Of a stretch of DNA of 64,000 nucleotides, positions 27,259 to 61,285 are shown piece after piece (the first letter of the stretch is position 1; every line of letters starts with the position of its first letter). Source of the stretch: Owenia fusiformis (lineage: Eukaryota; Annelida; Polychaeta; Sabellida; Oweniidae); assembly GCA_903813345.2 (NCBI GenBank), contig CAIIXF020000007.1:17034714-17098713 (forward strand), read 5' to 3'. The notes beneath the pieces are model-generated. The model was not told the origin of the DNA. It worked only from the letters and a program-made list of their open reading frames with translations, and made no database searches. A program made the translations under genes and the position numbers.

Positions 27259-27887
27259 TTGAATGTGTTTTTGAGACAGTCCAATGTACGAAGGTCCAAT
27301 GGTTTTGTAATAGTCTAAATAGCAGACGATGCAAATTTGAAAAATCATAAATTTCAAATGTGCTTCAAATGCACGTCAATTTCATTATTCTGGGACAAGA
27401 AACTCCTTGTTTTTTCGCTTAAAACAATCAAATTATATCTTATCTTTATTGGGACATCAATAATGAAGCAAAAACGGAGTAAATATAGACAAAATCCGGC
27501 AAAACTCAATCAAATTTTTAGAAAATCCAATTTTTTCAACCGACTGACTGACGATAGAGTCTGATGACCTTTGTTTTAATGTCGTAATTTTCAATCAAAT
27601 GCAAGATAATTGCTCTTTTTATTGAGTTATTTGAGCTGTATATTTTAATAATACAGATCAGTTTACAAAATATTTTTTGGATGGGCAAATAACCCACATT
27701 CTAATTATTCATCGATTAGTTTACGACAAACTTCCGTTTCAACTTATCTTTCCAGAAGTTGAGAATCGCGTTGGTGTTCAGTATAACATATAATTACAGC
27801 TCTCGCTGTCATTGATATAAAATATCTTGGAAATAGCTGGACTAGTATCCGAGGAACATATCGATACCATATTCGTAACTTTTCAAG
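27259..27887. promoter_or_regulatory. Head-to-head intergenic region, OXNAD1 and repeat gene
   Basis: The two start codons diverge from a 629-bp spacer, which must hold both 5' leaders and core promoters unless noncoding exons exist. An ETS-like ACTTCCGTT is at 27730-27738, and a TATA-like motif faces the repeat gene (27816-27825). Confidence 0.5.
27816..27825 (+). promoter_or_regulatory. TATA-like element of the repeat gene
   Basis: TATAAAATAT lies 63 bp before the ATG at 27888, which leaves room for a short leader of about 35-45 nt. In AT-rich DNA this could be chance. Confidence 0.4.
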
Positions 27888-27942
27888 ATGTACAAAATAC
27901 TTATTTTCAGTGTTTTGCTGGTGGTCTCATATTCAGCTCCAG
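27888..27942 (+). CDS. Repeat gene exon 1, signal peptide
   Basis: ATG with purine at -3 (AAGATG). Encodes MYKILIFSVLLVVSYSAP: one basic residue, a hydrophobic core LIFSVLLVV, and a small-residue cleavage site near S14-Y-S16. It ends phase 1 at GTAAGT. Confidence 0.85.
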
Positions 27943-30900
27943 GTAAGTTCAAAGTTTGTAAAACTTTTGAAAACTTTTGATACAGCCACTTGTCTGAAAT
28001 ACATCAGTATATTTTGTTAGTTTTGTAATGTGACTTTGGTGTACTTTAAAGGTATTTGAGCACTTGAGCTCTATAACTTGTACATATTTTACCCCGGGTA
28101 TTTGACATGGACTTGGGACTACTCAATATTTAGTTTCAAAAGTTATTCATCGGTCACTGTAATGTCCATTATTACCACCTTGCCGGGCCAGTTCTAGGGG
28201 TTTTAGTGCTAGTTTAAAAGGCATTCATTTTACTATATCGACCTGAGAAATGTGTGACGTCATAGTGGTGGTCCATATGGACCGGTCTAGAATATATTCT
28301 GGACCGGCAATTTTCCCCGGGAAATTAGATATCGTTCAATGCGTAAGATTTTCTTGCTGTTTCAGTCCTGGTTGTTAACGGTGGTAATAATACTAATAAC
28401 GTCATTTCTGCGAGCAATATAGTGAAATATTGGACCGGGGGCAATGCAACGCCCTCGGTCCAATATTTCACTATATTGCCCTTAGAAATGACGTTATTGT
28501 ACTATTCTGGTTCAGCTTTATGGAATATGTATATTTTAATGAAATATATATGGTAGACAGGGGTTGTTGCTTTTTATGGACTCTATAGGCTTTTTTGCTT
28601 GAAGATTTTTAACTGGGTCCAGGGCTTCTTCATGCCAGCTAAATAAGATTTCATTTTATGGTCTACTATGTACATTTTATACAATATGGTTCACTCTGTG
28701 TTTTTCTTTGTTTTCCTTATGTTTCACATGTGTTGTGAATGTGGGTATTACAATGTTTAGCTCAAGTTAAAGACAGTTGAACAGGGGAAAGATTGTCAAT
28801 CCAGAGACATGTAAAACAGTTTTATGTCTCTGGTCAATCCAAATGATCGTTTCAGGAAAAGACTATAGTTAAAGAGGTGATGGACTTACATTTCTGTTTT
28901 GGTGTTAAAATAATGTAAAAAGTATATGTTCAGATCAGCTCATCCATGGTATTCAAACTCTGCAGAATGATTTATTTTGGCTAATTTTTCACCATACATG
29001 TATGTGAAAATTCCATACTTTGTCATCTAAATAATTTTGAAAAATAAGGGTTTATTGAATTTTATGTAATTTTGATTGTACTTAATAAAATATGTGAATG
29101 ATGCCAAATTTCAGAATTTTTATCAGTTTGATTTTGACTCGTAGAATGAAGAAAGAATCCTAGATTTTGACCATGATTTGCAGTGGCCACTCCCTACCCT
29201 ATTTGTTACTATTGACCAGTCTCTATGGGGGATTTTTATTGATGCATGATTCACCAAGTGTTATAGCCTGATTAAAAGCCCCCTCAAATTCCCCAGTTGC
29301 TATTTGACAAGTTTATCTAGTCATCAAATTATGTACAGTATATATAAATTAAATAGAATTATATTATTCTTATGTCGCTTAATATCTAATATGTAATGTA
29401 TCTCATAACCTATAATATGTCTCTCATGTATTATGTGTCCTATGTGAAGCGTTTATCATGTGTTTTCAAAAAATGTGTATCTTACTCCTAGAGTCTCATT
29501 CAGAGTTTGCCATATGTGTAATATGTTATAATGTGTAATCTTTTTCATATTTTGTATATTCGTTCATCTTCAACAAAGTATGTATCATTCTGTAAGAAAC
29601 TCTTAAAGCATATTTTACATTAAGCTATAACATAATGTAAAATTATTATTTCGATTGTCTTGGTAATTTTTATGATTTTCTACTTTCAGTTCCAAATGTA
29701 GAATCTGCTCAAAAGGTAAGCGTATGAAAACTACTAATTTTAAAAAGAATAAACTGAATGATAAGTTAGTTGTCAATGTTAGTTGATCAATGTTTTTTAG
29801 CTCCATGTTTAGCTATTGCAATCACTCACTTGTCCATCTGTCTGTCTGTCCATCCATCTGTCTGTCCATCTGTCTGTCTGTCAACAATTGGCCTGTTATA
29901 AAACCTCTGTCAATAGGATTCCCGTTTTAAGTTATTTTTGTTCAACATCAATATAGAAAACCCCCTAATGACTCCTGGTTCAAAAGCTCGCCTATTTTCA
30001 AAATGGCCGCCATTTTTGTCTTGCGAAATTCACTTTTGGCCCATTTCCTATCTTTTGAAATAATTCAGGTGTCCTGAATTGTAAAAAGCCATGTCACTGT
30101 AAAGAGTAGTTGTATGAAATTTTGTTTCAAAAAATGGGCATAAGTTATATCATTTTTTTTTTATTTTTTGCCATTTTAGCCATCATTCACTTTTGAGCAA
30201 CACCATGTGAGCCCAGTACCCATGGTACTATTTTATTAAATTGTATTGTCTACTCTGTCCTAAAACTTATTTGTGTACATATACATGAAACTGCTATGTT
30301 GGTTTATCCGCGTCATGTCTAAAATGAAATACCACAGTCAAGTGGTGATCATACTTACGCTTGTTAAACAAAGACATAATAAAATAAGTTGGTATATTCA
30401 TGTTAACTAAAACATCATAAATGTCTCACATGTTACTGTTAAGTACATAAAAAAGCTGGTAAATAATTTATTTTGTTAAATCATTCTGTTTTGAAATGAT
30501 GAAGAAATTGAGAAATTTTGCTATTTTGTAAAACATAACTTACTGATTAAAGTGACCCAATTATATTATGCCAAAATAAAGTCACAGTTACAGGAAGTAG
30601 AAGAATTTTTTTAGAGAAAATATTACTGTATTTAAAAATCAAGCAAAATAATTTTGAAAAAATGTAAAAATTTGATAATGCATCAGTTTAAAAGTAGGCA
30701 GTTTAGGAGTTCTTAGAATGATTTTGTAAGTTCACTTTACTTGTAACTTACTTATACTTTATAATTAGACTATAATTGACATTGTAAAGTCATTTCTAGA
30801 GTAATTGATTTTAAGTTTGCAGATTTTTTTCAATCTAGCATTAATGTTGCATGTTCACAAAATCTATAATATATTATGATGATCCTTATAAATAAAAATT

Positions 30901-33900
30901 ATAAGTGATTTTTTGAAATTGTTATATTATTGTACAGTAAAGTGTTCATTATTACTAAACCATATTAATCATCTCTATACTCATAATATTACACAAACAC
31001 AAACTGTTCTGTCATTCAATTTGTAGAAAGTTCCATCCTTCTATACCCTGTGTGAACAGTCTAATAAGAAGATGAAGCTCTCTTTTGAGAATTGAAGTCG
31101 AACGAATGCAAAGCGTGATCCCTCTTCATTTCTGAAGTCACACATTTGTCGTGTATATAACTTTTAGTACTCTGCTATATTGAGCTGAATTTGAAATATT
31201 TAAAGTAGTCTTGTCGTAGACATATGGCCCCACAAGGTCTCACGAAGTCTGCATAGTTGGCTGTATAGTTGTCATAGTTTGCTGTTACCATAAGAGCGGC
31301 CTCTAATTACATACATATTTGGGGTTTACCACCCTTCTTGTTGTTTGAAAAGTTTTTGAAAAAAATATCGGAAAGTAAACATGAATATTAACTAAATGAA
31401 ACAATGAGGTAATGTGTTCAAAATTATATTTTGGAATGATTTCAAACTCATTATCAGCAGGAATTTGATTGAAATGCATTTATGTACTTAGGAAATATAA
31501 AGCATTTAAAAAATGTGTTTCCCATTTTGTCTAAACAACAAGTGGCTAGATCTCACAGAGCTGTCAATTATGATCTATGGAGTACAGCAATTCCACATTT
31601 GCCACTTCACTGTGTTAAGAATAGAAATTATTTTTCCTAAAATAAAATATTAAGGACCTATTTCCCACAGAAATAATCAACTGAAACTAAGGTTAATTGC
31701 TTTGTAAATGAAACTGCTTGTTTTACAAGAATTTAGATGATAAAAGAAATTATTTTTGGACAGTTTTCAATTTGCGGTTAATGATATCAACAATAGACAT
31801 GGTTCCAGGTTCTCTGGCTCTTTGGTAATATATCGTGACCACAAACATATTTCAAAGAGTTTTCATCAAAATATTTATTTTTAGAATTTATCTTCTTTAT
31901 TCTCGCATATTTTTTAGTGTTTTGGATGCATTCTCATATTCTCTTTTTAAAAATCTGACATTTAGTCAAATAGGACAGTCAACATTTACTGTTAATATGT
32001 TACACATTTTGCCATTTATGCTTCAATGAAATCATTTCAAAACAAAATACTGGAATAAGTTTACTTAAGTGATCACTTCTTATTGAATATAAACAGAACA
32101 ATATGACTGTAAATCCTGCCTCTTGAGATTAGTATGGTTAGCATTTTTCTGTGTGGTATCATCAGTAGACCACCATAACAAACTTTAGGGGCATATGAAA
32201 TACCAGTATATGATCTGATGATGAAATTAATTTATGTGTTCTCATCTTACCCTCTGTTGAAATTATGATGAAATTCAAGATTTCTTAATATATTACCAAA
32301 TAAGGTGTTACATTTTGGGTTTGGAAATGTTCTCAAACAATGTTATCAAAATCTAGTTAATTGCAAGACAAGATGAATATATTAATGATTTACCTTGTGA
32401 ACTCCCCAGTCAATGAGTACACACCAGCAGTCATATTATGTCTCAAGCTCTGCATCATATATCATTAGCTTTCTAGAGAAGGTCCAAGTATTATTTAATG
32501 TATAAACCATGAATACTTGCTGCTAGGAGAAACAATGGCCGAGGGCCGTATGCCTGAGACCATTATTTCTTTTAACAGCCAGTATAAATGGTTTATAAAT
32601 ACTTAAAACCCACACTTACTCTTATGAAAGATAAATGATCATTTGAACAAAATTCATGAAAATGAATGTACTTTTGTTACAACCAAACATTCTTTGAAAT
32701 AAAATCATTTCATTCTATTTTGTTGCTACCTAAGTGGGTTTTAAATCAGCTTGATTTACATGAAATGAAAATGAAATAAAAACAGGATCTACTTTTTGCT
32801 AATTTTGGGAAACCTTCTCAGGGTTTTTGATTGTAAATGTTGCTTTATACAATCTGTGGTATCTTGATTCCAACCAATATATCTTAGTTTATTTTGTGCA
32901 GTCTCAGGGTGTTTTAGAGTGATCTATTGAAATGGTTAAACACATAACACTTTTTGATAATGTAGATGATTCCTATAAATGAAAGTATGTTAGTATATAA
33001 TTTGCAAAATATTTCAGGTGGTAGGTATTGAATTAACATGTTCAAAGATCACTTTATTAAGCACATTTTGACTTATATTTCATTTTAGAAAGTTAAATGT
33101 TGAGGTAAGGTGGATAATTTATGTCACTTTGGCATATCAGATCTGTCCTTCTACCTCAAGTTATTGTGACCTGCCCACGGCCAGGCCAGACCAAATTTTG
33201 CATTTGGGTATAGTTACCATAATAGTGGGGCAAAATTGGCATAATGGGTGATTCAATGAATAATTTATTATATTATATATTTGATGTTCCAATCGGCAAG
33301 CTTAAAAGTCATAAAAACACACAAAATAGTGTTTAATTTCTCATCTTGCTCACCCAATACATTTTCCTTAGCTTGTTATATTGATATCTTATTCTTTGTC
33401 TAAGAGGTAGGGTTAATTGTCACACTTAAGGTAGCTTATACATATGTTTTAAAGTGTATATGCTCAATCGAACAGTTCATAAATCATCATAAACTATAGA
33501 TAGACCGAGAGGTCAATGACATATTAATAAGGCAATAGCACAATCATCATTACATAGCAAATTTAAGGTATAAATATTCCAGATTATCTTCAAATGTTGA
33601 ATGAAAATTGGTCAAAATCACATGCACGTAGTTATCACAGATTTTGTTTGTTCTAATCTTCAATTTTGCCAAGCACTTTAAAATCTCAGGTTGAATATTG
33701 AATATATAGTACTATGTATGTCATCATCTTGAACATCATTTCAACATTCCTGCTCACTCTAAAGCTTTTTATTTTTATAATACATTAATACAGTGCAGTA
33801 GTGATTATAGATATAAGAAAAATATCAAATCGATGAAGTCAGGAGGGGGGTGATTATTCCCAATAGTGGGGCCCCTCAGCCTATTTTGTAGTCTCTGTTG

Positions 33901-36900
33901 GTTTAGACTAAATATTGTATGAGCAATTTGGAGAAACATTCTAATAGGAGAGGGTGTGCCAGAAGGGCTTAAATGCTTACCTGAGAACTTTTACCAGTTC
34001 AGGATCACAGTCAGTGACTTCTGGACGCTTTCAAGTGTTTTAATCGATAGAATCAATTTAAAGAAATTCAGAATTTTTTCAATCAATTCCTTCTTAGGGG
34101 AGAAAGGGGGCAGTTTAGGAAAATACTTCCCTAGAAATTTTATAATTTTAAGATGCTATTTGGTGCTTTCTGGGCACTTGAAAAATGTATGAGTCAATAA
34201 AAAAAATATGTAAAAATCACAATTTTTTCACTTCTTTTTTTTGGGGGGGGGGGGGGGGTGTCCAAGGAGGGGAGAGGGTGCAAGAGGGGGAGGTGGGGTG
34301 AGGATGCCAAAGGGGGAGCAAGTGTTAGTACCCCAGAAAGACTATATCAGAGAGCTTTTCTTCAAATTTTTTTCAGGGGGGTTTCAAAGGGGGATGCGGT
34401 TGCACCCATCGCACCCCCACCCCCCCCCCCCCCCCCCCAGCTGACAGCCCTGTATTCACACTCTCATAGATTATTAACTGATTTTATCTTGTATATTTTC
34501 AGATAGACGATCTGAAATCCAAGGTATGTAGTAATATTTTATTGTTACAATCACAAAACATTAATTTCAGGCTTTAAAGTATAGGGTGGGGGGGGGCTGG
34601 GCCACATTTCAAGTCTAAAAAAGGTTAAAATCAAAAATTGGAATATTTAAGGTCTATTTTCTTGGCAATTTGGCTTAAAACTTTAAAAAGCTTCTGAAAG
34701 GTCAAGTAATGCCCAAAAAGGCCAACTAATTACTCTAAGGCCCTAAAATCTTTTGGTCTCAGACCATGCTGTCCCAGACACTTTTTAAAGCTATTTTTCT
34801 GGGCCCGTTCCAGGGGGGGGGGCAGCCCAAAATTAATTTCTTGCAACATGTTTGTTGCACCTTAGACAGGAAAACCTCTGAAAATATCAAAGGTTGAAAA
34901 AGTAAAGAAAGCAGAATAAAGTTCAAGAATCTTCATGAGCATCTTTTGAAGCTTCGAAAATAATGAATAGAAGGTTTTAGTGCTGCATTCAAACTTGGAA
35001 GAATGCTCAGAGCAAAATTGCAATGGTTTATATGAAGGGCTAGTTTGTATTGGTGTAAGTCTGTTGATAGTACATATTACAGATTCTTATGATCTTTTTT
35101 AATCTTTTTTAATCTGAATTTTTTGAATTTTAAGATCAAGTCAGAGGAAGAACCATTTTAAATGATAATTTAAAATGGCTCTTGATTTATTTCCTTACAA
35201 TTTTTGAAAATGATTTCTACTTAATTCTATAAGACATGTTTATATGAGGAGTACATACATATTATGATATTACATAATCTTACATCTTATATTCTGTTCT
35301 CATAGATCAAATGTTATCTTAATGATTCATGATTCTATATTCTACCTCCCTTATGATACAGAAGAAGGTTGGTTGATAGATGCTGTAGTGTTATATGATA
35401 TAAAACAGCTTATGTTGGGTGTTGCACGACTACAAACATATTGTTTCTTACTATAATACATCCCATCCTTGGTAAAACCATCTAATTGGTGTCTGGTGTC
35501 AAAAGTATTCAGGCCTGGGAAGACATTTATTTTTTAACCCTTAACTTTGAATTTAGCATGAGAGAAAATCGTTTGCAACAGTTCAAACCAAGTTTTAGTC
35601 CAATTGTAAAAGAGGAAGCGCTCTGCAAATACAAATAAATTTTAGAAAAAGATAAATGTTTTTACTTTCAAAGATTGAAATCCTAGTGACTGTAATCAAA
35701 ATAATTTCTGTGTAAAAGTTTATTTTATTGAAGTACTGAACACAAATACACTACCACCAACGATCACTGTAAAATTGTAATTTAATTTAACTTTAATATA
35801 CCAGTATGTATTTGTATGATCAATTTATGGTCCAAATAAAGAAACGTAAACATAAATATTTTTATAACTGATCATCTTGACTTTGAATATACATTGTAAA
35901 GAATAAAAGAAATTATTTTGAGTGAAGTTAAGTGTTTTTTGTTTCTGTATTATAAGTAGAACTTTGCCCTTGTTCTTGTTAAGTCAATGACATATTTAGA
36001 AGATATTTTTATCACTAGGTGCTGTTGTAATCCAGTGAATTATACTACATATACTACTTTAGATCAATGGTTTTGGGAGTAATTATGACTCTAACATGTC
36101 TAGCAGTAGTCTTGCTTTTTGTTTGATAAGCACTGAAATACCATTTACCATTGCTTCTAAAAGAACAATTTAGAAATGGTCCATTCACAACTTTATGCAT
36201 TTGTATCTTATTTCTAACTTGTGTGTAATCAATTTACAAATGTCATTAGACATATGAATTGAGAATGGTACAAGAATGGGCCCCCATATGGTAACAGAAA
36301 ATACAGTTCATAAAAATGAAAAATGCGATATGAGAGTAAACTTTTATGCCATTTATCTTAATCCTATATCGATCATAATATTTCTCTAATGTATGACATC
36401 AAATCAGATATAAAACTCTAGAGATGTTCAATGATTTCAATTTAATGGGGAATGGTTGCACATTGTGGGAGTAAAATAAACCCCCTTCCTTTTATAGTAA
36501 ATTATTTATGAAAGTTTCTATCTGTAGTTTACCTGTGGATTGTTAGATCCCTTAGATCAAAATTAAAAGGTTGCGATGTCCCAATTCATACCAAAATATA
36601 ATTATAGTGTTGATAAAGTTTATATTGAAGTTATGGCATTTGCCTAATGTGTTTTTAATTGGACCGTACTCACGGGATGTCATCGCCTGATTTGGTCAAT
36701 GTTAGGGAGCAGGTCGTTTTTACAATAAATTTCAATATTTTCACACAAAATATTTTTTTACTGAAAAACTGCTCATTCGCAGAGAAAATGTACTAGCACA
36801 TGCAATGACAATGTCAATCACGCTTCTGTACTAAATTCGGCGGAAGTCTTTTATAATCTAATACGAAGTTACTAAAAAAGGCGCGAACGCCCTACACTCA

Positions 36901-39900
36901 AAATGATCGTTTTTCCATTATAACTTTTTAACGTAATTTAACGAAGGCTTCTAATTATTATCCAAGATAGTCTAAATACCGATTAAAATATTTCTTACTT
37001 CAAACAGATACGCCGTCTTTTATTCAATTTTTTAAAAAATAATAAAAAATAACTCTTGTCAATGTTAGGGAGCAGTCAATGTTAGGGAGCAAAATGATTT
37101 TATCAGAATATTAAAAATGTAGCAAATGGCCATTTAAAATATGTATGGCATTTATAAACTAAACAATATTGTTTGAATGATTATTTTAAACCCCTTGCCT
37201 TAACAAAATTTAACAAAATCGATAAAAAAAATTGTTTTGCATTTTTGTTATCTTCAGAAAATGGACTCTCAAAGATTTTTGACGAAGGAAAGTTAATTAT
37301 TATCATGGATAATCTCAGTACATATTGAAATATTTCTTACTTCAAACAGGTACACCTTTCTTTAATTTTTTTTAAATAATAAAAAATAAGTATGATCAAT
37401 GTGGCGGAGCAAACAATGCAGTGGGGCGAAATGGTTTTATCAGAATATCAGAGTAATTGGCCTTTACAAACATGTATGTCATTTATAAACTAGACAAGAT
37501 TGTATGATTGTTTTATACCCCTTGGTATAAACCTTACAAGCATACAGTATTGCTCAGCACAATATACACAATTTAACCAGATACAATAATTACATGACAT
37601 CTCCCTTTATTCATGATATTGTATTTAAATAAATGAGCTCATCTTTGTATATAAATTATTGTTTTGAAATAGACCGGTAACACTTAAAGAAAGTCTAAAA
37701 CTTCCCATCCTGCCCCATCGAATCCCATCGAGTCTAACGTGGGACCTCATGGGACTCGATGGGGCAAGATTATATGCAAGTTGGGGCAAAATCCGACGGA
37801 GTCCCATTGATTCCCACGGACTTCATGGGGCAAAATCCCAAAAGGTCCCACTAGGTCCCACGCCATGTTAAGTCTATGGAGGTCCCAACTTGTCCCATTG
37901 GTGTATACCGGGCTTTAGAGTATCATTAGCAAGTGGTACACATATAACAGAGATCGGTTATATACTGCATTGTCTGAGTATTGACAAATTGAAGTATACG
38001 TGTAAAAATCTACTATCATACATGTAACTGCGCAATGAGCCCTTCATAGCGTTTGTGCCAGCTATCAGGTGATACCCGGTCGTAAAGATAAGTGCGAGAC
38101 TAACTCTCTTACTTTAATACTAGGAAAATATCAAATCATAGAACTGAAGGATGTCGGAGATTTCTCAAGCCTATATGTCAGTTCAGATAATTTATCATCC
38201 ACAATTTAGGATTGTGAACTGATGACATCATCAAAAAGTGTATATAACGATACATCCATTCATTTACAGTTAGAGGTCAACGAATAAAGAAGGAATGGTT
38301 CGCATCTAAATATTTCTAAAACGAACGTAAACAGGATTTAGCTGAAAATAAAAAATGCAAAATAACCTTTTCAATGATTTTCTTACAATTTTAACGCTTT
38401 CCTCCCCAAAGGATATCAAATAATCATACAAACAAAATTGTTCAGTTTATAAATGCCATACATATTTTAAATGGCCATTTGCTACATTTTTAATATTCTG
38501 ATAAAATCATTTTGCTCCCTAACATTGACTGCTCCCTAACATTGACAAGAGTTATTTTTTATTATTTTTTAAAAAATTGAATAAAAGACGGCGTATCTGT
38601 TTGAAGTAAGAAATATTTTAATCGGTATTTAGACTATCTTGGATAATAATTAGAAGCCTTCGTTAAATTACGTTAAAAAGTTATAATGGAAAAACGATCA
38701 TTTTGAGTGTAGGGCGTTCGCGCCTTTTTTAGTAACTTCGTATTAGATTATAAAAGACTTCCGCCGAATTTCGTACAGAAGCGTGATTGACATTGTCATT
38801 GCATGTGCTAGTACATTTTCTCTGCGAATGAGCAGTTTTTCAGTAAAAAAATATTTTGTGTGAAAATATTGAAATTTATTGTAAAAACGACCTGCTCCCT
38901 AACATTGACCAAATCAGGCGATGACATCCCGTGGTACTAGAGGTTTAAGGTCATAACTGCGTCTTTTGGGTTTATGTTATTTTCCCAATAGGTTCCAATT
39001 AATTTGAATTATACGCTACTCACGTTTTTTCTGGGATTATGTATTCCAGAGAAATTGGGATCACCAAGTGTATTCCATTGATGATTGTAATTGTATAAAG
39101 AACATCTATAATTAGTATGATATCACATCCTGGATAGCTCTGTATTAAACTCACTTTTGATTAATTACTTGAAAGTGTAAATATCAATGGACCGATACAA
39201 TAGATACAATAAAAAAAAATTGGGTAAAGTTTCATAAGGTGCTCGTTAGATGTTCTAATCAAAAAGTGAAATTAATGAGATTGTGTTATGAGATGTGGTG
39301 ATAAATATTAGATGATCAAGGATTTGCATTGACAAAGGCGTAGGTCTGTCGACAACATCCTAGTTTCCCATATCCTGGAAATACAACTCTTGTGTTGCAG
39401 TTTTCTCTAATGAGCTGTATTCAGGCAATCATTCTAAGTAGAATATCTATTTTCACATTTATTGAAACAATTGTGTTATGTTGAATAATATGTTGAAACC
39501 TTAGTGCATTTAGATATTGTATAATTGAACAACTTTTTTGCATTCTATTTGTATCAATGGCAATATTTTTTAGGTATCCTACAGATACAAGTCTAAAAAC
39601 TGAAAATGAAAATTTTTTTAACAATACTTTTTGTGTTTTACTCTTATTTCCTGAAGTTTTTCAAATTTAAAATATATTTTACAATGCCACATCAGGTGTA
39701 TTTAAATATGCCATATCAGTTGTATTTAATAATCCCATATCGGTTGTATTTTATAATGTCATGTCAATTTGATTTGAAATTTCAGTAATTTTTAGCAAAA
39801 AAGAGTCATTTTTCCAGCCGCCAGAGGACTGCCCAATTTAGGCAAGTGGTCAGGCTATAATTGACAGTGGCACTGACTATAATTGACCAGACTCTCTCAG

Positions 39901-51900: not shown

Positions 51901-54900
51901 TGAGTAATGCTGATTTCTGTTTTAGCACAAAGCTTCATTTGGTGTTGTATGGTGTCTTTCACAGTTGCTTGGTGCTGACCAGGTACTTCGCCTGTCAATG
52001 TTGTATGGTGTTTTTCACAGCTGGCTGGTACTTCAATAGCCTGTGGTTGTTGTATGGTATCAAACACAGCTGCTTGGCACTTCAATAGCCTGTGGATTTG
52101 ATGCACAGTTATTTATACTGTATGTTTCTAACATATCACCTGACTATGATATTTTTGCATTATAGGACCGTTTAGCATCATTTTGCACTGCGGCTCTTTT
52201 GTTTAACTTCATTTTATCTTTGATGCATTTGTTTTATGTTATGTTTATTTGTTATATTTGTGTTTTATAATTTTTAGTGGACAGAAAATCGGTAATACAT
52301 GTGAGAAATGAAAATCCAGGTATATACCTAATCTTTCATACACCATCATGAAATATCTTTCATTCAGTCCTTAGAAAAAGAAATAAATTCAGAATTTCAT
52401 CTTTGTCAAACTATATTGATTACGATAATGTTATATTTGAATAATGAGTTAAATGATGCAATTTAATTCAATGATTTCTTTTTAATTTTGTTTATGATTT
52501 TTACTTGAAAAGTCAGCGATGCTGCAAAATGAAATTTTAAGTATTATTAATTAAATTCAGCAGAATAAAAAAGTTAATGTCATACTTAGAATACATATAA
52601 ATATACAGTTTATAATAGATACTTTGTCATAATTTTTATAATTTTAGTTGAAAAGTCAGTAATACATGTGCGGAATGAAGATCCAGGTATTATTTTCTGA
52701 TCTAACTTAAGTATAATCAGATAAAGTGTATAAGATACCAGCATAAAAATATTTTGACATACCTTTCCTTTAAATTCTGTCATACTTATCAATCCACAAA
52801 AAAAAACACTTTTACACCAACTTACGCAATGCAGAAATCCATTCTTAAAAATAAAATAGTAGAAGTCAGTATTTGATATAATGTAACATTATCCTAAATC
52901 ATAAAATCATCATTTTACTCCTAAATCACAAATTTAAACATGAAATGTGTTTATTGTTTTAGTTGAAAAGTCTGTAATTCACGTCAGAAATGAAAATGCA
53001 GGTACAGAAATAAATTTCAATATAATTTACTAATTTTTGGTTACTGAACCAAAAAACTAATTCAAAGTTTGAAGCTCGCGGTCTAGTGAGAGAACTGATT
53101 TAATCTGAAATATGCATGCGGAAAACAAGCTTTCTAACAAAGAACATGAATTCAGATTAGAAAATATATAAAATCTGTCAAAAATACATTATATTTAGCT
53201 TTTGCATGTTGTGATGCAATTAGAATATTCAATTTAATTCGGTATACTTTGTAATGTCATCTGTGTTGTGATGTCATATGTTGTAAATTGTGATGTCATG
53301 TGTATGTATGTTTGTATTCAGTTGAGAGAAAAGATGCAGTTATTCACGTCAATGGTGAAAGTCGATCAGGTATAAAGTTTCACTAAGTTGGAATGAAATC
53401 CAGGAATAATGTCATTAATCAAAATAAAGCATGTATATTTTCTAAAACTTTGATCCCTACATATATGTTTATTGGCATGATTAAACTTTGAAAAAGGTTC
53501 GAGGGAATTTTCACAATATATTGTTGATTATTGTTGTATTGGCAAGTGTTTTATTTTGTTCTTTCATCTTTGTTTTTGTCTCCTCTCTAGTTGATAAAAA
53601 AGATGCTGTCATACATGTGAATGGTGATAGTCGCTCAGGTACAATGTTAAATTTTATTCTAAGTATTTTCAATTTCCCTTTTTTATTTAAGAATTCTTTT
53701 TAAGAGAAGCTTAAAACCAACATGACTCTCGATTTAGAAAATGCCAAAAACAAAAACTTTGAAAACTCACAAAATCAATTTTCGTAAACAACATACCTAA
53801 GTCATGGGAAATCAAAATACATGTTGTTGGTATGTCAGTTTTACTGTTTTGTTTGCAACTTGAATATGAAATTGCATTAAAATGCATAATGGCTGATTTG
53901 TACACAAAGAAAACTTGGACTGATAACTAATATTCTGTTTGTACCATTTACTAACATTTCACATATGTGTGTATTGTCTTCTAGTGGAGAAAAAGGATGC
54001 AGTGATACATGTTCGCTCGGGAGCCCCAGGTAACGGTAGCGTCATCTATAGCATGCGGCATGAGATATCTGCATATAACTGACTAACATGGATATTGTTG
54101 TACGTGTAAAGCATGAGTTGACATTTATTGATATTTTACATTTTTAGTATACAATGTAGTTTGTACATAGGACAAATATTTACAGAGAATTTAATTGATT
54201 CATATTACTTTTTTTGTTGGAATGGACCTTTCCAATAAACCCTGGTTCCATCTTTTGCAACACCAAAAATAATTTTCTAACCTTTTTTCAAAGTTATCAG
54301 TAAGTTAATTTAATATTTGCTACCTAACCCATTATGAACCTAATGAATATATCATTGTTACATTGATGTAGCAAATTTGGTTTGAGGAGTTTATGGAAAT
54401 GGTCTATTATATTTATTTATTTCTCTATTTACATGTATCTATATAAAATATACTGTTGATATTTAATGTACATGTACTTCAGAAATGTATTTCAAGATAT
54501 ATATTGTGACAAAACAAAAAGTATTTATATTTGATTGTATATTCTACAATTTAGGTAGTATTATTCTTATCTTTTGTAGATTTAAACTTTATTATTTCTT
54601 TTTATGTTACATTAACATTCATACGTGTACAGGTATATCTATATTTGCAGAATTTGTTTGATGCTTCATTTGCAGTTATGCATGCGCTTTTATGTTCAGA
54701 GCTCAATATGTTTTAGTCACTTACCATAGACAACATTGGAGTTGTCCTGTCTGTTTTGCTGACTTCAATATGTTAAAAACCATGTGCTTCTCACACTGTA
54801 TCCTCATGCTTTCTTATCCTTGATTTTGAATGGATCATCATTCGACATTTCACTCTGAAAAAAGTGCTGTGTGATTGGTGATTAATGGATTCAATGAAGC

Positions 54901-57900
54901 AATGAATTAATTCAGCTGTGACAGGTTTTGAGACAAGAAGGCACTTGTCCTTGTGGCATGTTTTACTCCATTAAATCCTTACTTATATTTTGTGTTTTCT
55001 TTAGATTTAGATAAAAAAGCTGTTATACACGTAAGAGGAAACCAACAAGGAACATTTTATGATTCCTCACTTGATCTAGAAAATTTAGGAAAAGCATTTG
55101 GTAGGTTGTAATGGTGATATAGAAAGCACCATCTAGTGAGGGAGTAGAAATAGATGGTGCTTGTGTTTGGTTGACTGCATTTAGGAATAGCCAGAGGAGG
55201 GTGTGTATCCAGAATTCCCAGTACCCAGAATTCCCACTCACAGTTAACAAGTAAAGATCTGGGATCCATAGCACCATCTTGAACAATTATAGTTTCATAT
55301 AGAAACTGTTCACTGATCAGTGCGGGTTATTTCTGAAGTCTCTTTGCATTAGTTTCTACTTTCTAATACAGAAATGTATATGGGATTACATAGGAGGTGA
55401 AGGAAATAAGTTCAATATGGAAATGCTTAAAAAGTATGGTGGTTTGGGTGATCAGATTTTACTTTTGCATATACTAATGGAGTGTTTTATTTTAGGAATG
55501 GAGTTGTTACCAGTACCTCATATTATAAAACAGTTATGTTCATTCACCATCAAACCTTTATTTTCCCTGTCCCATCTTTGTATTTCTGCATGTGCTTTAT
55601 AAATTCTTAGCAATCTGGATCATTTTGCAAGATTTGCACCTGGTCTGCCATTGTTCAATATTATAGTGAGTCAAAGGTTGTGTTCATTTGATGAGATTTA
55701 CTGACCAGCAAATGCTAAGAGTGAACTAAATGTATTTACAAAATATGTCCATCCAACAAAGCATGTATAACTAATAATTTACCATACCTCGTTAAAGATA
55801 ACTTTACTTTGTTTCCTTGCCCTGTTTACTATTTAGATTTAATGCATGTACATGCCTTGGTCCTGTGTTACAGTTGACAAGAAAACAGTTATCAACCTTA
55901 AGAAGAAGGCTCCAAGTGTTATAAACCTCAGAGGAGGTCAGAACATACAAGGTGAAGGTCGTGGTAGATTTCTTGATCTACCTCTACCTGACAACAAGCT
56001 TGGTGCTGTATTTCTGGGTGTGTTTTTATAGGCTAGTTTCTTTGCATTTGACTTAGTGTGGCTTGCTTTGTCAGTATCATGTACCCTCTTGATCAAATGA
56101 ACTTACAGGGTGTCCTAAAAAAATTGAACTGAGATGAAGATGGAAAAATTCTGTAAGTGATGAAGGAATATTCTTTGGTCATCTGAAAAACAATTATCAT
56201 AAACATCTGATAGTTTCATCAGGTAACTTTATTCAGTTTTAGAGAAAAGCTTGTTTTAGTACCATCGCCCATATTTCAATTTTGCACTGAAACAAACATG
56301 TTATGAAAGTTTCATTATGTAACTCTATTTAGTTTAAGATAAAAACTTGCTTTAGAACCATCACAGATTTTTCAATTACATTCATTTCTACATCGATCAT
56401 GACGGAGGACATTTAGAACTTGTTTTCTAAAATGTAAAATTTCTCAGAAAGGAATTGAAAATGTCTATGAATTCTTAATTGCTAAATGAGAAATGAGTTT
56501 CCCTTATGGGAAAAATTCAGCTTTTTTCGATTAAGGAAGAGTATTTCTGTAAGTTTTTGGGACACCCTGTATTTATCAATATTAATATAAGGCCATTTAC
56601 TTTTCTTGGAACAAATATGGAGTAATATTTGAAAGTTCAGAAGATGTTTGTTTGAATTATTTTCTATCTAGATTAAAAACCTTGAGTGATGAACGTTCAC
56701 AAACGAATATTTATGTCTGACGACTGCAAGACAATAAAATAGTCACTGCTGATTTATGTTTTGAATCATACATTTACACTGCACAGATTGAGAGGGAATT
56801 ATTGACATGCTTGATGTCAGGAGTAATGCTTCTAGAATCTTTTTGATGAAAGGTTGTATACCATGTCATCCTCCTGTCCTGTCCTGTTTTTTTAATAATC
56901 GCCTTTGCACATTTTGAATATATTCAGCACAACTGTCAACAGAATATGTGACTGAAAATTGGCTGTTATTATTATATTGAAATGAATAATAGAATGAATG
57001 TGATTGGTTACTTTACTGCACACATGAATATGTAATGGCTTTTCGTTTGCTTGAACACAACACTGGAACATCAAAACTGCTTCATATCTTGATTATGCAA
57101 TTTAGATGTGTGTTTGTGTGTAATGTTGTATCTCATCTCTTTCTGTCTTTTTGTATGCACTCTTGACTGTTGGAAAACTTAGGAAATGAATGTCAATTTT
57201 AAGAAATATGTGTATTGCTCGTGGCGACTAAACTTTAGGCTAGATGTGGCACTCGATAATCTAATCTCTAGTTCCTGGCTTTACAAACTTGCAAGTTAAC
57301 TCATGTGAATTTGTTAAGTTTTAGCTTGCAAGTTAACTAGCGAGTTGAAATAGCTTATGAGTTCTAGAGGAAAACTTGAGGCCTCATTTCAGCAGCTCTG
57401 ACGAGCTCTTGATTTATTTTCAAATTAGCGATAGTATCTCAGTGAAGGCACCTGTCCCTGTGGCTGTCTTACTCCATTTAATAGTTATATTTTCTGTTTT
57501 CTTTAGATTTAGATAAAAAAGCAGTTATACACGTAAGAGGAAACCCACAAGGAACATTTTATGATTCCTCACTTGATCTAGAAAATTTAGGAAAAGCATT
57601 TGGTAGGTTGTAATGGTGATATAGAAAGCACCATCTAGTGAGGGGGTAGAAATAGATGGTGCTTGTGTTTGGTTGACTGCATTTAGGAATAGCCAGAGGA
57701 GGGTGTGTATCCAGAATTCCCAGTACCCAGAGTTCCCACTCACAGTCAACAAGTAAAGATCTTGGATCCTTAGCATCATCTTGAACAATCATAATTGTAG
57801 TAGTTCTATCGAATCTCTTTGTAAAGGGTGAAAATGGAAATGCTTAAAAAGTATGGTGGTTTGGGTGATCAGATTTTACTTTTATAAATACTAATAGAGT

Positions 57901-60900
57901 GTTTTATTTTAGGAATGGAGTTGTTTTATTACCAGTACCTCATAATATAAAACAATTATGTTCATTCACCATCAAACCTTTATTTTCCAATAGTTCTGTC
58001 TTTGTATTTCTGCATGTGCCTAATAAATTCTTAACAATCTCGATCATTTTGCAAGCTTTGTACACGTGCCATTGTTCAATAGTATAGTGTTCTTGTTATT
58101 AGAGTCAGAGGTTGTGCTCATTTGATGAAACTGCTAAGAGTGAACTCAATGCATTTATAAAATATGTCCATCCAACCAAGCAAAGCATGTATAAGTAAAA
58201 CCATACCATACCTCTTTGAATGTAGCTTTACTTTGTTTCCCTGCCCTGTTTACTATTTTGATTTAATGCATGTGCATGCCTTGGTCCTGTGTTACAGTTG
58301 ACAAGAAAACAGTTATCAACCTTAAAAGCTTGAAGAAAACAAAGGAAGCTCCAGACCCAAGTGTTATAAACCTCAGAGGTGGTCAGAACATACAAGGTGA
58401 AGGTTATGGTCGATTTTTTGAACTACCTCTTGTTGACAACAAGCTTGGTGCTGTATCTCTGGGTGTGTTTTATAGGCTAGTTTCTTTGCACTTGACTTCC
58501 TGTGGCTTGCTTTGTCGGTATCACATACACCTTTTTGATCAAATGGACATATTTGTCAATATTAAAATACACGGCCATTCAGTTTTCTCCGAAAAGAAAT
58601 AATATTTGGAAGTTCAGACAATTTTTGTTCAGAAAAAATAAATCATTTTCTATCTAAATTTTAAAAAAACTGATTAATGGAAATTCACAAAATGATATTA
58701 TTTTATGTCAGATTACTTTTTGAGAGGGTAATGTTGACAAGTTTGGAGGCAGGATTTATCCTTACATCGTTCATTTTATTGTAAAGTGTGTTAACGCTTT
58801 TGACATACTGTTCTTCAGCATTTAAACAGTTTAATAGAAGAGAGTTTGACTTGTAGTGTGGGTGTTTGTGAAAGGTTGTATACCACATCATCCTCCTTTG
58901 TGCAACCTCATCTCCATTCCAACCTTTCTTGTACTTTTTCCTTCTCCCTCTTCTCTATGCAACTATGAGTTTGTGATTGCATTTCTTACACTTCTCTCTC
59001 AACTTAAAACTGCAAAATAAAAATAATCTTCGCACACTTTGAAATTATATTGCTGCCTTGGACACAATTGCATCACTTCCTTTCAACAGCGTACATTATA
59101 AATGACTGTGAGAATTTGAATGTTATTATATTCAAATGAATAGTAGAATAAATGTGATTGGTTACTTTACTGCACACATGTATATGTAATGCCTTTTTGG
59201 TTGCTTGAACACAACACCGGAATTTCAAAACTGCCTGTTTCATATCTTGATTATGCAATTTAGATTGTGTTATGTTGTATCTAATACCAAATGTATTTCT
59301 TTCATCTTAGCTATACATGTTCTTTGTTTTTCTCGAAATCTTACTAACTTAATTTAATCCAATTCATAGTTTCATTTGTTTATGTTATGTTGTTTGTGTT
59401 ATGTGATGTGATGTTTATTTATTTTTCTGTCTCTTGTTATCATCATACATGTTCATCTCTCCAATGTCTTGTTGCCACCAAACATGTATACAGTAATGTT
59501 GTTTTGTTGTAAAGCTGTTGTAAATTGGAATGTTTTGTTGTTTTAAGGTGATGACGAGGGCTACTTTGATAGGTTCCAAAGTGAATGTAAGTCAGATGTA
59601 ACATTGTACAAAGCTTCTCATTTAATATTTATTTATCTATTGAGTGTCTGAATACTTTCATATTTCAATAATTCAGTTTTCTTCATCATGAACAAAAATC
59701 TGTCGATAGATAAGATTAGATCAGATATGGCCTTAATTTGAATATTAATCAAATGTTTGGGTAAAGTTTCCTTCCATTTGTCCAGTTATCTCAAGTGCAT
59801 GGAGAATTTATCACTCATACACTTCCATTTCCACAATCACCCTGTTTGGCCCTAGTATTTGACCTTGCTTGACTCTCGTATTTGACCTTGTTTGACACTT
59901 GCATTTGACCTTGTATTTTATGCTACATTTAGTATTGGAAGAGGCTGAGAGAAGACTACTTGCTGACCTGAGATATGCCAAAGACCACAATATCAGTATA
60001 CAAAGCATCATCAAAGACATCGAAGCTAAAATGGGTAAGAGATATATGTTAGTTATGTTACATCATTCAAGAACATCAATGAACATATGCCTCAATGGAA
60101 AGTCTATTTTCTGAATGTCTTTGAAAAGTCTTCTGAAAGTTCCTGGCTGTAGTATGTATATTAGATTCATAGCAGGTACATGTATATTGTAAATGATGTG
60201 TTGTCCATTTTTGCCTTCCAATCCAGGCTATAGAGACTACTATGATTATCAATAAAGGTACATATAAGCTCATTTTGTGGCATGTTATTTAAGAAAATAT
60301 AGCCAAAATAATTTGCCATGATGTTGACAGACTTAAGTTTTATCAATTAGAGTAAATATCTGCATGTTCAAATTAAAATACACTTTCTAATCACATTTCT
60401 GTTTTAGACCTCATGAAATGTTTTATGACAGAAGTAGTTTTATTTTTTGTTTGTGTCCTTTTAGTGACTCCTTAGTTAAGCCTGATTCCATTAGTATAAG
60501 ATAGCAATGTCATTCTTAGTTTTTTACCAATGAATGAATCCATATGGTCCTGAATCATATCATAAGTTAAGTTTAGACAGAACTATATTTTTTAATAAGT
60601 TATATACAAATACATATTATTTTTGATGGATAGACCGATTATTTCAAAATACTTTCAAATCTCTAATATTTTCATTTGTGTCTATGTTCTTGTGTAAATA
60701 TTGTCTATCTGCTTAATTAGAACTCTTATGGCTTGCTTTGTTGACTGAGATATGGTTTTATGTATTATTTTACATTTCTCTCTCATTGTGTCATTTAAAA
60801 GTGTTTTATATTCATATGTAGGCCACATATCCAGTAGTTCATATATTATTCATATTGTTTGATATATGTGATTTATAGGGTTATGTTATTTTGTTAATTA

Positions 60901-61285
60901 GATATTGCCCATGCTTCACTCTCATGATCAGTAAATTAAATAGATACCTTCTCTTGTGCCAAGCACAGAATAACTGACCAACATATATGGCAGTTTATAT
61001 TGGTTCTACAAATATCTACATCAATAACAACAGCCCTTAGTGGTAGATTCTTAAAAATACCAGTCTGGTACTAGTCTGCATGGTTATACAATGCTAATTA
61101 ATTCTAAACAATGAAGGACAAATTAATCGTTCAATTAAAAAATCATTCTAATCCAAAATGAGAGGCTGTTATTTGCTTATATTTCTGTCTAATTATTACA
61201 TTTGGTGCTACCTTATGTTTCAGAGGCAGCAAACAAGCTTTCACAGGATGAAGAACAGCTTAATAAACTCAGACTCCGAGATTAA
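27888..61285 (+). CDS. Unrecognised secreted coiled-coil and beta-motif repeat protein, 21 exons, 481 residues
   Basis: Exons: 27888-27942, 29690-29715, 34503-34523, 47451-47471, 48505-48624, 48902-48938, 49195-49272, 51356-51478, 52278-52319, 52648-52686, 52963-53001, 53322-53369, 53591-53638, 53985-54029, 55005-55100, 55874-56017, 57507-57602, 58298-58462, 59548-59586, 59933-60034, 61224-61285. Lengths sum to 1446 nt with one open frame and every junction AG/GT. Domains: signal peptide (1-16), coiled coil (about 22-48 and 60-93), sixteen copies of a strand-like motif such as KKAVIHVRG or SVINLRG (104-387), an acidic aromatic linker GYFDRF (about 419-424) and a charged helical tail (428-481). 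Exons 7-20 are all phase 1-1, so they can be added or skipped without frameshift. I do not recognise the family. A secreted, self-assembling structural role is inferred from architecture only. Confidence 0.85.
27943..29689 (+). other. Repeat gene intron 1
   Basis: Contains the palindrome at 28395-28499 and a small hairpin CCAGAGACAT/ATGTCTCTGG at 28801-28832. No gene is seen. Confidence 0.6.
28395..28499. repeat. Near-perfect palindrome, 47-bp arms (MITE-like)
   Basis: ATAACGTCATTTCT and GCAATATAGTGAAATATTGG on the left mirror CCAATATTTCACTATATTGC and AGAAATGACGTTAT on the right around a short centre. Only a few mismatches, so it is probably a recent insertion. Confidence 0.85.
29690..29715 (+). 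CDS. Repeat gene exon 2
   Basis: A 26-nt exon encoding VPNVESAQK (first codon split). It links the signal peptide to the coiled coil and sets phase 0 for the next exons. Flanked by TTTCAG and GTAAGC. Confidence 0.75.
29811..30215 (+). repeat. Dispersed repeat with CTGT microsatellite
   Basis: GCAATCACTCAC, TGTCCATCTGTC units (29838-29882), TTTTAAGTTATTTT and a GTGAGCCCAG end are shared in part with 16538-16860. No coding capacity. Confidence 0.6.
34241..34440. repeat. Low-complexity poly-G / poly-C patch
   Basis: A run of G at 34242-34258, a GGGA/GGGG-rich middle, and a run of C ending near 34438. It lies 60 bp before microexon 3. The frames here are compositional artefacts. Confidence 0.8.
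34503..34523 (+). CDS. Repeat gene exon 3, 21-nt microexon, one heptad
   Basis: IDDLKSK, phase 0-0, between TATTTTCAG and GTATGT. Ile28 and Leu31 occupy a/d positions that continue into exon 4. Confidence 0.7.
36671..38934. repeat. Large inverted repeat, arms about 500-580 bp
   Basis: Left arm from 36671 (CACGGGATGTCATCGCCTGA) to about 37255 is inverted at about 38345-38934 (ending TCAGGCGATGACATCCCGTG). The outer 500 bp are nearly identical and the inner 80 bp are diverged. CAATGTTAGGGAGCA occurs three times in each arm. A second, more diverged direct copy of part of the left arm follows at about 37255-37530. The spacer holds the hairpin at 37711-37766. No transposase is visible. Confidence 0.85.
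37711..37766. repeat. GC-rich hairpin in inverted-repeat spacer
   Basis: TGCCCCATCGAATCCCA pairs with TGGGACTCGATGGGGCA. The following 150 bp repeat GTCCCA and GGGGCAAAATCC in both orientations, unlike the AT-rich surroundings. Confidence 0.7.
40378..41135. mobile_element. Foldback element with about 90-bp TIRs rich in GGTACC
   Basis: Left terminus (TTCAAGGGTTTGTAGAAAAA, GTAAATCCTCCATGCTGGGT) is inverted at 41050-41135. An inner inverted pair (40462-40500 and 40645-40695) repeats GGGTACCCGG. No transposase, so non-autonomous. Confidence 0.75.
44119..44395 (+). repeat. Minisatellite, 17-bp unit, about 16 copies
   Basis: Consecutive variants of GTTGAGCTCTTGCAAAG and GTTGAGCTCTTTCAAAG. It produces long chance frames on the minus strand (KELNLCKSST repeats) that I do not treat as genes. 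Confidence 0.92.
47451..47471 (+). CDS. Repeat gene exon 4, 21-nt microexon, one heptad
   Basis: LARLQEV, phase 0-0, between TATTTTCAG and GTGAGT. Leu35 and Leu38 continue the 3-4 hydrophobic spacing from exon 3, and Leu42/Leu45 of exon 5 carry it on. Confidence 0.72.
47472..48504 (+). other. Repeat gene intron 4
   Basis: No gene or clear repeat. A tRNA B-box-like GGGTTCAAACCCAGG at 47557-47571 has no matching tRNA body. Confidence 0.55.
48505..48624 (+). CDS. Repeat gene exon 5
   Basis: A 40-codon exon in phase 0. LRDLNVQEK ends the first coil, then a Pro/Thr hinge KPTTPTPK, then two LSPSE caps each starting a helix (EEKIQEIAALL and EVELLR). Clean TTTCAG and GTAAAT ends. Confidence 0.82.
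48738..48828. repeat. Hairpin element, about 35-bp arms
   Basis: GCAGGGTTACAGAAACATAC is inverted as GTATGAATCTGTAACCCTGC around a 20-nt loop. It lies in the 277-bp intron between exons 5 and 6. Confidence 0.8.
48902..48938 (+). CDS. Repeat gene exon 6
   Basis: Encodes SVKAKLAAEKQK and shifts the phase from 0 to 1, the phase kept by every following junction. Ends at GTAAGG. Confidence 0.75.
49195..49272 (+). CDS. Repeat gene exon 7, first strand motif
   Basis: Encodes EAFDQGHFEEKAIINLRG and a Gln/Asn-rich end (SQDTNAQQ). It carries the first repeat motif, KAIINLRG (104-111). Phase 1-1. Confidence 0.8.
49273..51355 (+). other. Repeat gene intron 7 (2.1 kb)
   Basis: Contains a tandem duplication of AGTACTTTTCCTGTTTCCTT (49977-50031) and an imperfect inverted repeat (50569-50609 with 50697-50736). 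No exon keeps phase 1. Confidence 0.55.
51356..51478 (+). CDS. Repeat gene exon 8, three strand motifs
   Basis: Three motifs in one exon: KKAVIHIR (122-129), KKAIINLR (136-143) and KKAVIHIR (148-155), spaced 14 and 12 residues. Phase 1-1; acceptor TTATTTTAG, donor GTGAGT. Confidence 0.88.
51479..52277 (+). other. Repeat gene intron 8
   Basis: A loosely repeated motif around TTGTATGGTGT(C/T)TTTCACAG appears at about 51945 and 52002, with a weaker relative near 52050. No gene is seen. Confidence 0.5.
52278..54029 (+). CDS. Repeat gene exons 9-14, six single-motif exons
   Basis: Exons 52278-52319, 52648-52686, 52963-53001, 53322-53369, 53591-53638 and 53985-54029 (42, 39, 39, 48, 48, 45 nt) each encode one unit: DRKSVIHVRNENP, VEKSVIHVRNEDP, VEKSVIHVRNENA, VERKDAVIHVNGESRS, VDKKDAVIHVNGDSRS, VEKKDAVIHVRSGAP. 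A split Gly or Val codon joins them. The first three and the next two are the closest relatives, which suggests serial exon duplication. Confidence 0.88.
54030..55004 (+). other. Repeat gene intron 14
   Basis: AT-rich; the last 70 bp match the sequence before exon 17 because they belong to the duplicated block. No gene is seen. Confidence 0.55.
55005..56017 (+). CDS. Repeat gene exons 15-16
   Basis: Exon 15 is 96 nt and exon 16 is 144 nt, both phase 1-1. Together they carry three strand motifs (AVIHVRG, TVINLK, SVINLRGG). They also add a longer Asp/Leu-rich segment and a Gly-rich segment (GGQNIQGEGRGRF) not present in the short units. Confidence 0.87.
56106..56569. mobile_element. 464-bp MITE with Tc1/mariner-type ends and TA target duplication
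   Basis: Starts CAGGGTGTCCTAAAAA and ends TTTTTGGGACACCCTG, so the 16-bp TIRs have one mismatch. TA flanks both sides (56104-56105, 56570-56571). The homologous point in copy B (about 58546-58552) has one TA and no insert. No transposase frame inside. Confidence 0.88.
57430..59275 (+). repeat. Duplicated block, copy B (exons 17-18)
   Basis: Direct, same-strand copy of 54930-57115. Similarity is visible from GAAGGCACCTGTCCCTGTGG to ATCTTGATTATGCAATTTAG, interrupted by indels, and it lacks the 464-bp element. Confidence 0.9.
57507..58462 (+). CDS. Repeat gene exons 17-18
   Basis: Exon 57507-57602 repeats exon 15 with Gln to Pro in GNPQG. Exon 58298-58462 repeats exon 16 but has a 21-nt in-frame expansion (KSLKKTKEAPDP) between its two motifs, and GYGRFFELPL in place of GRGRFLDLPL. 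Confidence 0.87.
59548..61285 (+). CDS. Repeat gene exons 19-21, acidic linker and helical C-terminus
   Basis: Exon 59548-59586 encodes GDDEGYFDRFQSE. Exon 59933-60034 encodes the amphipathic LLEEAERRLLADLRYAKDH and SIQSIIKDIEAKM. Exon 61224-61285 encodes EAANKLSQDEEQLNKLRLRD and TAA at 61283-61285. The tail is strongly charged with Leu/Ile at 3-4 spacing, consistent with a second coiled coil. Confidence 0.83.
60227..60257 (+). other. Possible alternative terminal or stop-containing exon
   Basis: Between exons 20 and 21 a segment follows CCAATCCAG and precedes GTACAT. Read in phase from exon 20 it gives GYRDYYDYQ and then TAA, with AATAAA overlapping the stop. It could be an alternative C-terminus lacking the last helix, or chance. 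Confidence 0.3.

Follow-up and report, generated by a model that had tools for sequence, protein, structure and literature searches.

A predicted 21-exon gene of Owenia fusiformis for a putatively secreted repeat protein that fits no curated family searched

The genome of the annelid Owenia fusiformis includes an array of small exons on contig CAIIXF020000007.1 (assembly GCA_903813345.2). The stretch analyzed here, called the window, covers 64,000 nucleotides (nt) of the forward strand, from position 17,034,714 to 17,098,713 of this contig, and coordinates below count from its first letter. An original prediction, made from the sequence alone, had proposed that positions 27888 to 61285 hold a gene for an unrecognized secreted repeat protein. 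Our analysis confirmed that this observation is real: the predicted gene model is sound, and its protein fits no curated family among those searched, namely Pfam, NCBIfam, and the sequences of the PDB.

A gene model built from small exons

Exons were located in positions 27500 to 64000 of the window. Joining them at their splice borders yields a chain of 21 plus-strand exons with AG/GT borders and compatible phases, which runs from an ATG at 27888 to a stop codon ending at 61285. The joined exons comprise 1446 nt and encode 481 residues plus the stop, and this reproduces the model as originally predicted. The accompanying statements about size stand in part. Introns do approach 13 kb (they measure 221 to 12,927 nt), and exons of 55 nt or shorter number 12 of the 21 rather than 13. 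Intron 1 is in phase 1, introns 2 to 5 are in phase 0, and introns 6 to 20 are all in phase 1. Exons 7 to 20 are therefore of phase 1 on both sides, so gain, loss, or skipping of any one would keep the reading frame, and alternative splicing of these exons is possible.

Leave-one-out splice matrices were applied to 12 of the 19 internal exons (2 to 4, 6, 9 to 14, 19, and 20), with competitors defined as AG..GT stretches of at most 150 nt that lie in the same interval and have equal length modulo 3. The named exon ranks first in six cases, second in two, fourth in three, and fifth in one. Among stretches of equal length it ranks first in all 12, although nine of the 12 had only one to seven candidates. 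In total 15 rivals score higher, and 11 of these contain an in-frame stop, including all six that compete with exons 3 and 4. The remaining four keep an open frame; three are near exon 14 (54148-54162, 54483-54632, and 54555-54632) and one, of 9 nt, is near exon 19. Another rival, at 33089-33207, scores lower than exon 2.

The guanine-plus-cytosine content of the three codon positions is 0.568, 0.307, and 0.286. A codon-usage score trained on 741 codons from three open reading frames (ORFs) of the window gives 0.135 for frame 0 and 0.127 for frame 1, so that the two frames are not told apart, and this is far above the scores of 2000 intron stretches (maximum -0.039).

Sixteen motif copies and the duplications around them

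The repeats are defined by the strict motif [ASTI]-[VI]-I-[HN]-[VIL]-[RKN], of which sixteen copies had been claimed. All 16 were found, exclusively on the plus strand of 49195-58462 (9,268 bases); neither the minus strand of this region nor either strand of the remaining 64-kb window holds a single match. In 300 first-order Markov simulations of the repeat region, the motif occurred 0.07 times on average and at most once. A looser pattern adds one plus-strand match at 39295, which is followed by a stop, and none on the minus strand. The fourth motif position is histidine in ten copies and asparagine in six. Most copies sit on small phase-1/1 exons: motifs 1 to 10 are distributed over exons 7 to 14, with three on exon 8, and exons 15 to 18 carry one or two each together with a second element. 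The second elements of exons 15 and 16 (GTFYDSSLDLENLGKAF and GRFLDLPLPDNKLGAVF) are alike (shuffle p = 0.0046, for stretches picked by eye), whereas the likeness is weaker for the version in exon 18 (p = 0.06) and absent for exon 19 (p = 0.74).

Repeat families reveal a tandem copy of about 2.5 kb that carries two exons and their introns, by which exons 15 and 16 were recently duplicated as exons 17 and 18. This duplication and the amino acid absences described below are additions to the original prediction. Exons 15 and 17 are identical at 94 of 96 positions, compared with 616 of 662 for intron 15. Exons 16 and 18 agree at 133 of 144 aligned sites and differ by four silent and six replacement codons, as well as by seven codons inserted in frame. 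This pair shows little constraint beyond an intact frame.

The older copies present a different pattern. Exons 10 and 11 have equal lengths and align whole, as do exons 12 and 13. When the two pairs are pooled, 12 of 17.3 silent sites differ (proportion of silent differences, pS, 0.69) versus five of 63.7 replacement sites (proportion of replacement differences, pN, 0.08). The same differences read off frame, as controls, give pS 0.15 with pN 0.21 and pS 0.00 with pN 0.27. Exon 9, with one codon omitted, resembles both 10 and 11 (pN 0.07, pS 0.52-0.68), and the DNA sequences of exons 9 to 11 and of their acceptor sites still resemble each other. Because the differences are biased toward silent sites only in the predicted frame, exons 9 to 13 were kept for the protein they encode.

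A decaying or unexpressed gene, or a model that wrongly joins or omits exons, might be suspected for a gene known here from genomic DNA alone, with open splice rivals near exons 14 and 19 and a codon-usage score that does not separate two frames. That same score far exceeds those of the intron stretches, however, and the 481 codons are free of frameshifts and stops. Similarly, exons 16 and 18 diverge about as fast as their introns do, but their change in length is one of whole codons, exons 15 and 17 are close to identical, and conservation between the older copies is specific to the frame. We give decay, lack of expression, or misjoined or omitted exons only a very slim chance.

Relatives and other elements of the window

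A search of the genome (498 Mb in 525 contigs) with the whole protein returned 13 matches, 11 of them in its own locus and two weak ones on contig C11 (expectation values, E, of 4.1 and 9.4). The latter were considered as a second copy and rejected, being an unrelated DNA tandem repeat, QLNDVSSALTYKDAIP-like, that is translated by chance. This repeat (locus L005, C11:2989500-2994500, positions 1760-2781) is open in several frames and mimics a repeat protein. With a shorter composite query made from the repeats, all six matches fell in the gene's own locus. A loose DNA pattern for the motif found 213 matches versus 111 for a reversed control, and the first of its matches, the ones listed, cover contigs C1 to C6. 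A tight pattern, which covers four of the gene's own 16 motifs, found 18 versus 12, with four in the gene and 14 scattered, several of these mutually identical. No second copy was found in the genome by these sequence searches, which can miss weak matches, and a diverged copy could be missed. The genome has three matches above the cut-off of PF16915, the C-terminal family of erythrocruorin linkers, which is regarded as annelid-specific; 14 control genomes lack a match, but as far as named they are prokaryotes, and their negative result is of little weight. A search for mitochondrial COX1 found nothing.

The original prediction also recognized no family with this plan, and the curated collections agree. 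In Pfam-A, where six matches up to E 10 are listed and matches weaker than about E 0.1 can be missed, nothing exceeds a curated cut-off; the best scores 15.4 bits against a cut-off of 27. The only NCBIfam match up to E 1 scores 18.8 bits against 30, and the PDB sequences contain no credible relative. RPC3_helical (Pfam, E 0.025) and aroma_sacti_dom (NCBIfam, E 0.0015) are below their curated cut-offs, and matches to a cellulase (E 1.9) and a butyrate kinase (E 1.3) among PDB sequences are not significant; all were treated as chance. Phages yielded no relative, and the pattern stretches encountered in viral contigs (33) and prokaryote contigs (117) included none that was confirmed. The strings AVIHVR, SVIHVR, AVIHIR, SVINLRG, and TVINLK do not occur in the main texts of the literature searched, and nothing was found there on a secreted tube protein of Owenia. 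Lineage-specific secreted repeat proteins are not rare, and relatives that are annotated but unnamed may well exist in other worms.

The features of the gene are collected in Table 1. Near the candidate promoter are two further TATAA strings, at 27782 and 27789. At the opposite end of the gene, a possible alternative last exon follows exon 20 at 60227-60255, where a polypyrimidine tract and AG precede GYRDYYDYQ and a stop codon that AATAAA overlaps (judged by eye).

Table 1. Predicted exons and associated features, in window coordinates
Feature	Positions	Strand	Basis or remark
TATA-like box TATAAAAT, candidate promoter, 72 nt 5' of ATG	27816-27823	+	sequence match only
Exon 1: start codon, signal-peptide-like MYKILIFSVLLVVSYS, then AP (cleavage site by eye)	27888-27942	+	joined model
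Exon 2, 26 nt	29690-29715	+	splice rank 1/921
Exon 3, 21 nt, exactly one heptad, IDDLKSK	34503-34523	+	splice rank 4/2369; three better, all with stops
Exon 4, 21 nt, exactly one heptad, LARLQEV	47451-47471	+	splice rank 4/1882; three better, all with stops
Exon 5: start of third heptad, P/T linker, helix-prone LSPSEEKIQEIAALLSPSEVELLR	48505-48624	+	recovered whole in genome search
Exon 6: helix-prone SVKAKLAAEKQK	48902-48938	+	joined model; splice matrix
Exon 7: motif 1 (AIINLR)	49195-49272	+	pattern match, joined model
Exon 8: motifs 2-4 (AVIHIR, AIINLR, AVIHIR)	51356-51478	+	single-exon model helical, low confidence
Exon 9: motif 5 (SVIHVR)	52278-52319	+	pattern match, repeat families, joined model
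Exon 10: motif 6 (SVIHVR)	52648-52686	+	pattern match, repeat families, whole-exon comparison
Exon 11: motif 7 (SVIHVR)	52963-53001	+	pattern match, repeat families, whole-exon comparison
Exon 12: motif 8 (AVIHVN)	53322-53369	+	pattern match, whole-exon comparison
Exon 13: motif 9 (AVIHVN)	53591-53638	+	pattern match, whole-exon comparison
Exon 14: motif 10 (AVIHVR)	53985-54029	+	splice rank 5/148; three of four better rivals open
Exon 15: motif 11 and second element	55005-55100	+	pattern match, joined model
Exon 16: motifs 12-13 and second element	55874-56017	+	pattern match, joined model
Exon 17: motif 14; recent copy of exon 15	57507-57602	+	duplicate comparison
Exon 18: motifs 15-16; recent copy of exon 16	58298-58462	+	single-exon model without strands, low confidence
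Exon 19: acidic/aromatic DDEGYFDRFQSE	59548-59586	+	splice rank 4/164; one of three better rivals open (9 nt)
Exon 20: helix-prone tail LLEEAERRLLADLRYAKDHNISIQSIIKDIEAKM	59933-60034	+	splice rank 1/230
Exon 21: tail end and stop codon	61224-61285	+	joined model
Tandem segmental duplication, first copy with exons 15-16	54980-57107	+	repeat families D1-D5, D8-D12; second copy about 57482-59265

Intron 3 harbors several further elements. At 36671-38933, inverted arms of 527 nt that are 98% complementary lie 1209 nt apart. A 430-nt piece of an arm has 40 full-length matches at 100% identity among the 40 scored of 520 genome-wide candidates (two of them its own arms), and many of the matches form opposed pairs a few kb apart. 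The whole resembles an abundant and young DNA element bounded by long terminal inverted repeats. Nested inverted repeats on GGTACCCGGT at 40405-41102, with arms of 50-52 nt that are 92-96% complementary, look like another foldback element, and 44120-44395 holds 16 copies of a 17-nt tandem repeat, GTTGAGCTCTTGCAAAG. Elsewhere in the window, an apparently intronless minus-strand ORF (5365-6696; 443 residues stop to stop) encodes a Ras GTPase domain (PF00071, E 8e-22) with a long serine-rich tail. Farther upstream, plus-strand ORFs at 2690-3819 carry RWDETPG-like repeats, which we take to resemble splicing factor SF3B1; the Pfam family SF3b1 scores below its cut-off (18.2 versus 25.1 bits, for the first ORF alone). 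The window gave no match in Rfam and no tRNA.

Possible architectures of the protein

The protein begins with a hydrophobic, signal-like stretch (MYKILIFSVLLVVSYSAP, judged by eye), in keeping with the signal peptide originally predicted. The mature protein has a computed mass of 52 kDa and an isoelectric point of 8.6, lacks cysteine and tryptophan, and is rich in K, R, D, and E. Near its start is the coil-like pattern I-xx-L-xxx-L-xx-L-xxx-L-xx-L (residues 28-45), with I or L at positions a and d over about 2.5 heptads. Two of its three consecutive heptad-like units are single 21-nt exons (3 and 4), and the 20-residue stretch with the strongest heptad character in the mature protein, residues 26-45, falls at these single-heptad exons. 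A Pro/Thr linker and a helix-prone stretch follow, and beyond the repeats an acidic-aromatic exon precedes a helix-prone tail. By the Chou-Fasman method, beta exceeds alpha propensity in all 16 motifs (1.19-1.27 versus 0.96-1.10), and the linkers and ends are helix-prone. The linkers are charged and rich in N, G, D, E, and P, and successive motifs are 19, 14, 12, 15, 13, 13, 15, 16, 16, 15, 31, 10, 39, 31, and 17 residues apart.

Tentatively, we favor a structural protein of about 52 kDa, secreted and free of cysteine, whose N-terminal heptads would bring identical chains together in register. Each VIHVR or VINLR motif would then act as a short strand and pair with its counterpart in neighboring chains. 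The result would be a rod or filament that has the charged linkers on its exterior, located in extracellular matrix, mucus, or a tube. Its array would have grown by duplication of exons and segments, a process in which exons of symmetric phase 1 leave the frame intact. This reading is favored because strand propensity is confined to the motifs, because single exons encode single heptads, and because the irregular spacing would be harmless if identical chains pair in register. Such spacing is bad for stacking within one chain, and for this reason the beta-solenoid that had been offered as one possible form does not, if its rungs are of regular length, agree with distances of 10 to 39 residues.

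Several observations weigh against the rod or filament. Strand propensity is partly built into the motif, since a definition rich in V and I makes it nearly certain. Likewise, the low ratio of pN to pS across all 16 motif cores (0.16 to 0.84, or 0.19) is partly circular, since the copies were chosen by a V/I-rich amino acid pattern. Two AlphaFold models have a mean predicted local distance difference test (pLDDT) of 53 and 68 and contain no strands of at least three residues; one of them, of exon 8, instead includes a 16-residue helix of low confidence, and the other is of exon 18. These models are of two single exons as monomers without an alignment, and are weak evidence either way. When the stretch is chosen by eye, heptad periodicity has p = 0.010, but p rises to 0.135 when the whole mature protein is searched, relative to shuffled proteins, and correcting for the choice of stretch in this way weakens the case for a fibre. 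A heptad signal is absent from the second helix (p = 0.43) and marginal in the tail (p = 0.04, uncorrected). Of the secreted oligomer with flanking coils and stacked strands that was first proposed, what stands is the signal-like start and the strand-prone motifs. The N-terminal heptads, the strongest of the mature protein, are short and make a weak case for a coil. The other coils fare poorly, and both oligomer and fibre are inferences.

The same weak coil statistics, and single-exon models that lack a confident fold, would suit an intrinsically disordered matrix or mucus protein. Its VIHVR and VINLR motifs would be short binding motifs that provide avidity, perhaps for a sugar, a mineral, a metal bound via histidine, or a partner protein, and its helical ends would dimerize or anchor it. 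Irregular motif spacing and the charged linkers described above, within a protein of high K, R, D, and E content, also agree with this explanation. The conserved V-I-x-V core, however, combines hydrophobicity with strand propensity and resembles a packed strand more than an exposed ligand. Conservation between exon copies does not discriminate, as it fits the structural reading equally. We regard disorder as somewhat unlikely.

A further point against a rod or filament is that KK or RK stands directly, or after one D, before 11 of the 16 motifs, and that 11 of the 15 (overlapping) dibasic positions are found there, which also fits a precursor cleaved into many small secreted peptides. Most of these would be about 10-14 residues long, for example DAVIHVNGDSRSVE, as in multi-copy, nonamidated neuropeptide precursors of the pedal peptide and orcokinin type. 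Those precursors similarly combine a signal-like start with many units of about 14 residues, dibasic pairs, and no amidation, and here the units are borne on small exons. Dibasic sites do not border every unit, however, being absent before motifs 1, 6, 7, 13, and 16, and they are not independent of one another, since the exons are copies. KR sites are absent, and Gly never precedes a dibasic pair (it stands before a single K or R five times). Conservation would fall on the front part of each released peptide. Precursors of this kind do not usually have helical ends, their consensus was not recognized in this protein when compared by eye, and no corresponding Pfam family was matched. Cleavage into peptides is in our judgment unlikely.

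The rod or filament that we favor invites comparison with several known systems. The shafts of reovirus sigma-1 and adenovirus fibre are formed by coiled coil and/or triple beta-spiral. As in these proteins, heptad-like units precede repeats, mostly of 12-16 residues, in which turn-forming residues separate short alternating hydrophobic segments, and the proposed assembly in register would work alike. In the triple beta-spiral consensus, each repeat of about 15 residues contains a Gly/Pro turn and two alternating hydrophobic segments, whereas the repeat here has one such segment (by eye) and a spacing of 10-39. In addition, the protein has no visible head domain and comes from an animal gene with introns, and the six listed Pfam matches (E up to 10) include no shaft family. 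Curli-type and other beta-solenoid proteins are also secreted and built of tandem strand-turn repeats, but this protein offers one short strand candidate per repeat at irregular distances, and no Pfam repeat family of these types is among the matches listed. Fibrillar collagens and elastin are similar in gene plan only, as secreted structural repeats encoded by many small exons of compatible phase that are gained or skipped in frame. Without Gly-X-Y or elastin-like repeats, the protein considered here is a different one altogether.

The boldest version of the favored reading is a new animal assembly, a separately evolved counterpart of viral fibre shafts. In it, short coils would register the chains, sixteen stacked VIHVR strands would form a cysteine-free extracellular rod, and growth would proceed by duplication of one-strand exons. 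We consider it very unlikely. The gene itself consists largely of microexons spread over 33 kb, and ordinary gene prediction may miss or fragment such genes. If its product is a peptide precursor, it would represent a peptide family without a match to any known one. If the assembly is true, it would provide a compact natural blueprint for an extracellular rod, with a single small exon for each strand or heptad, and the gene would directly record the growth of a repeat protein.

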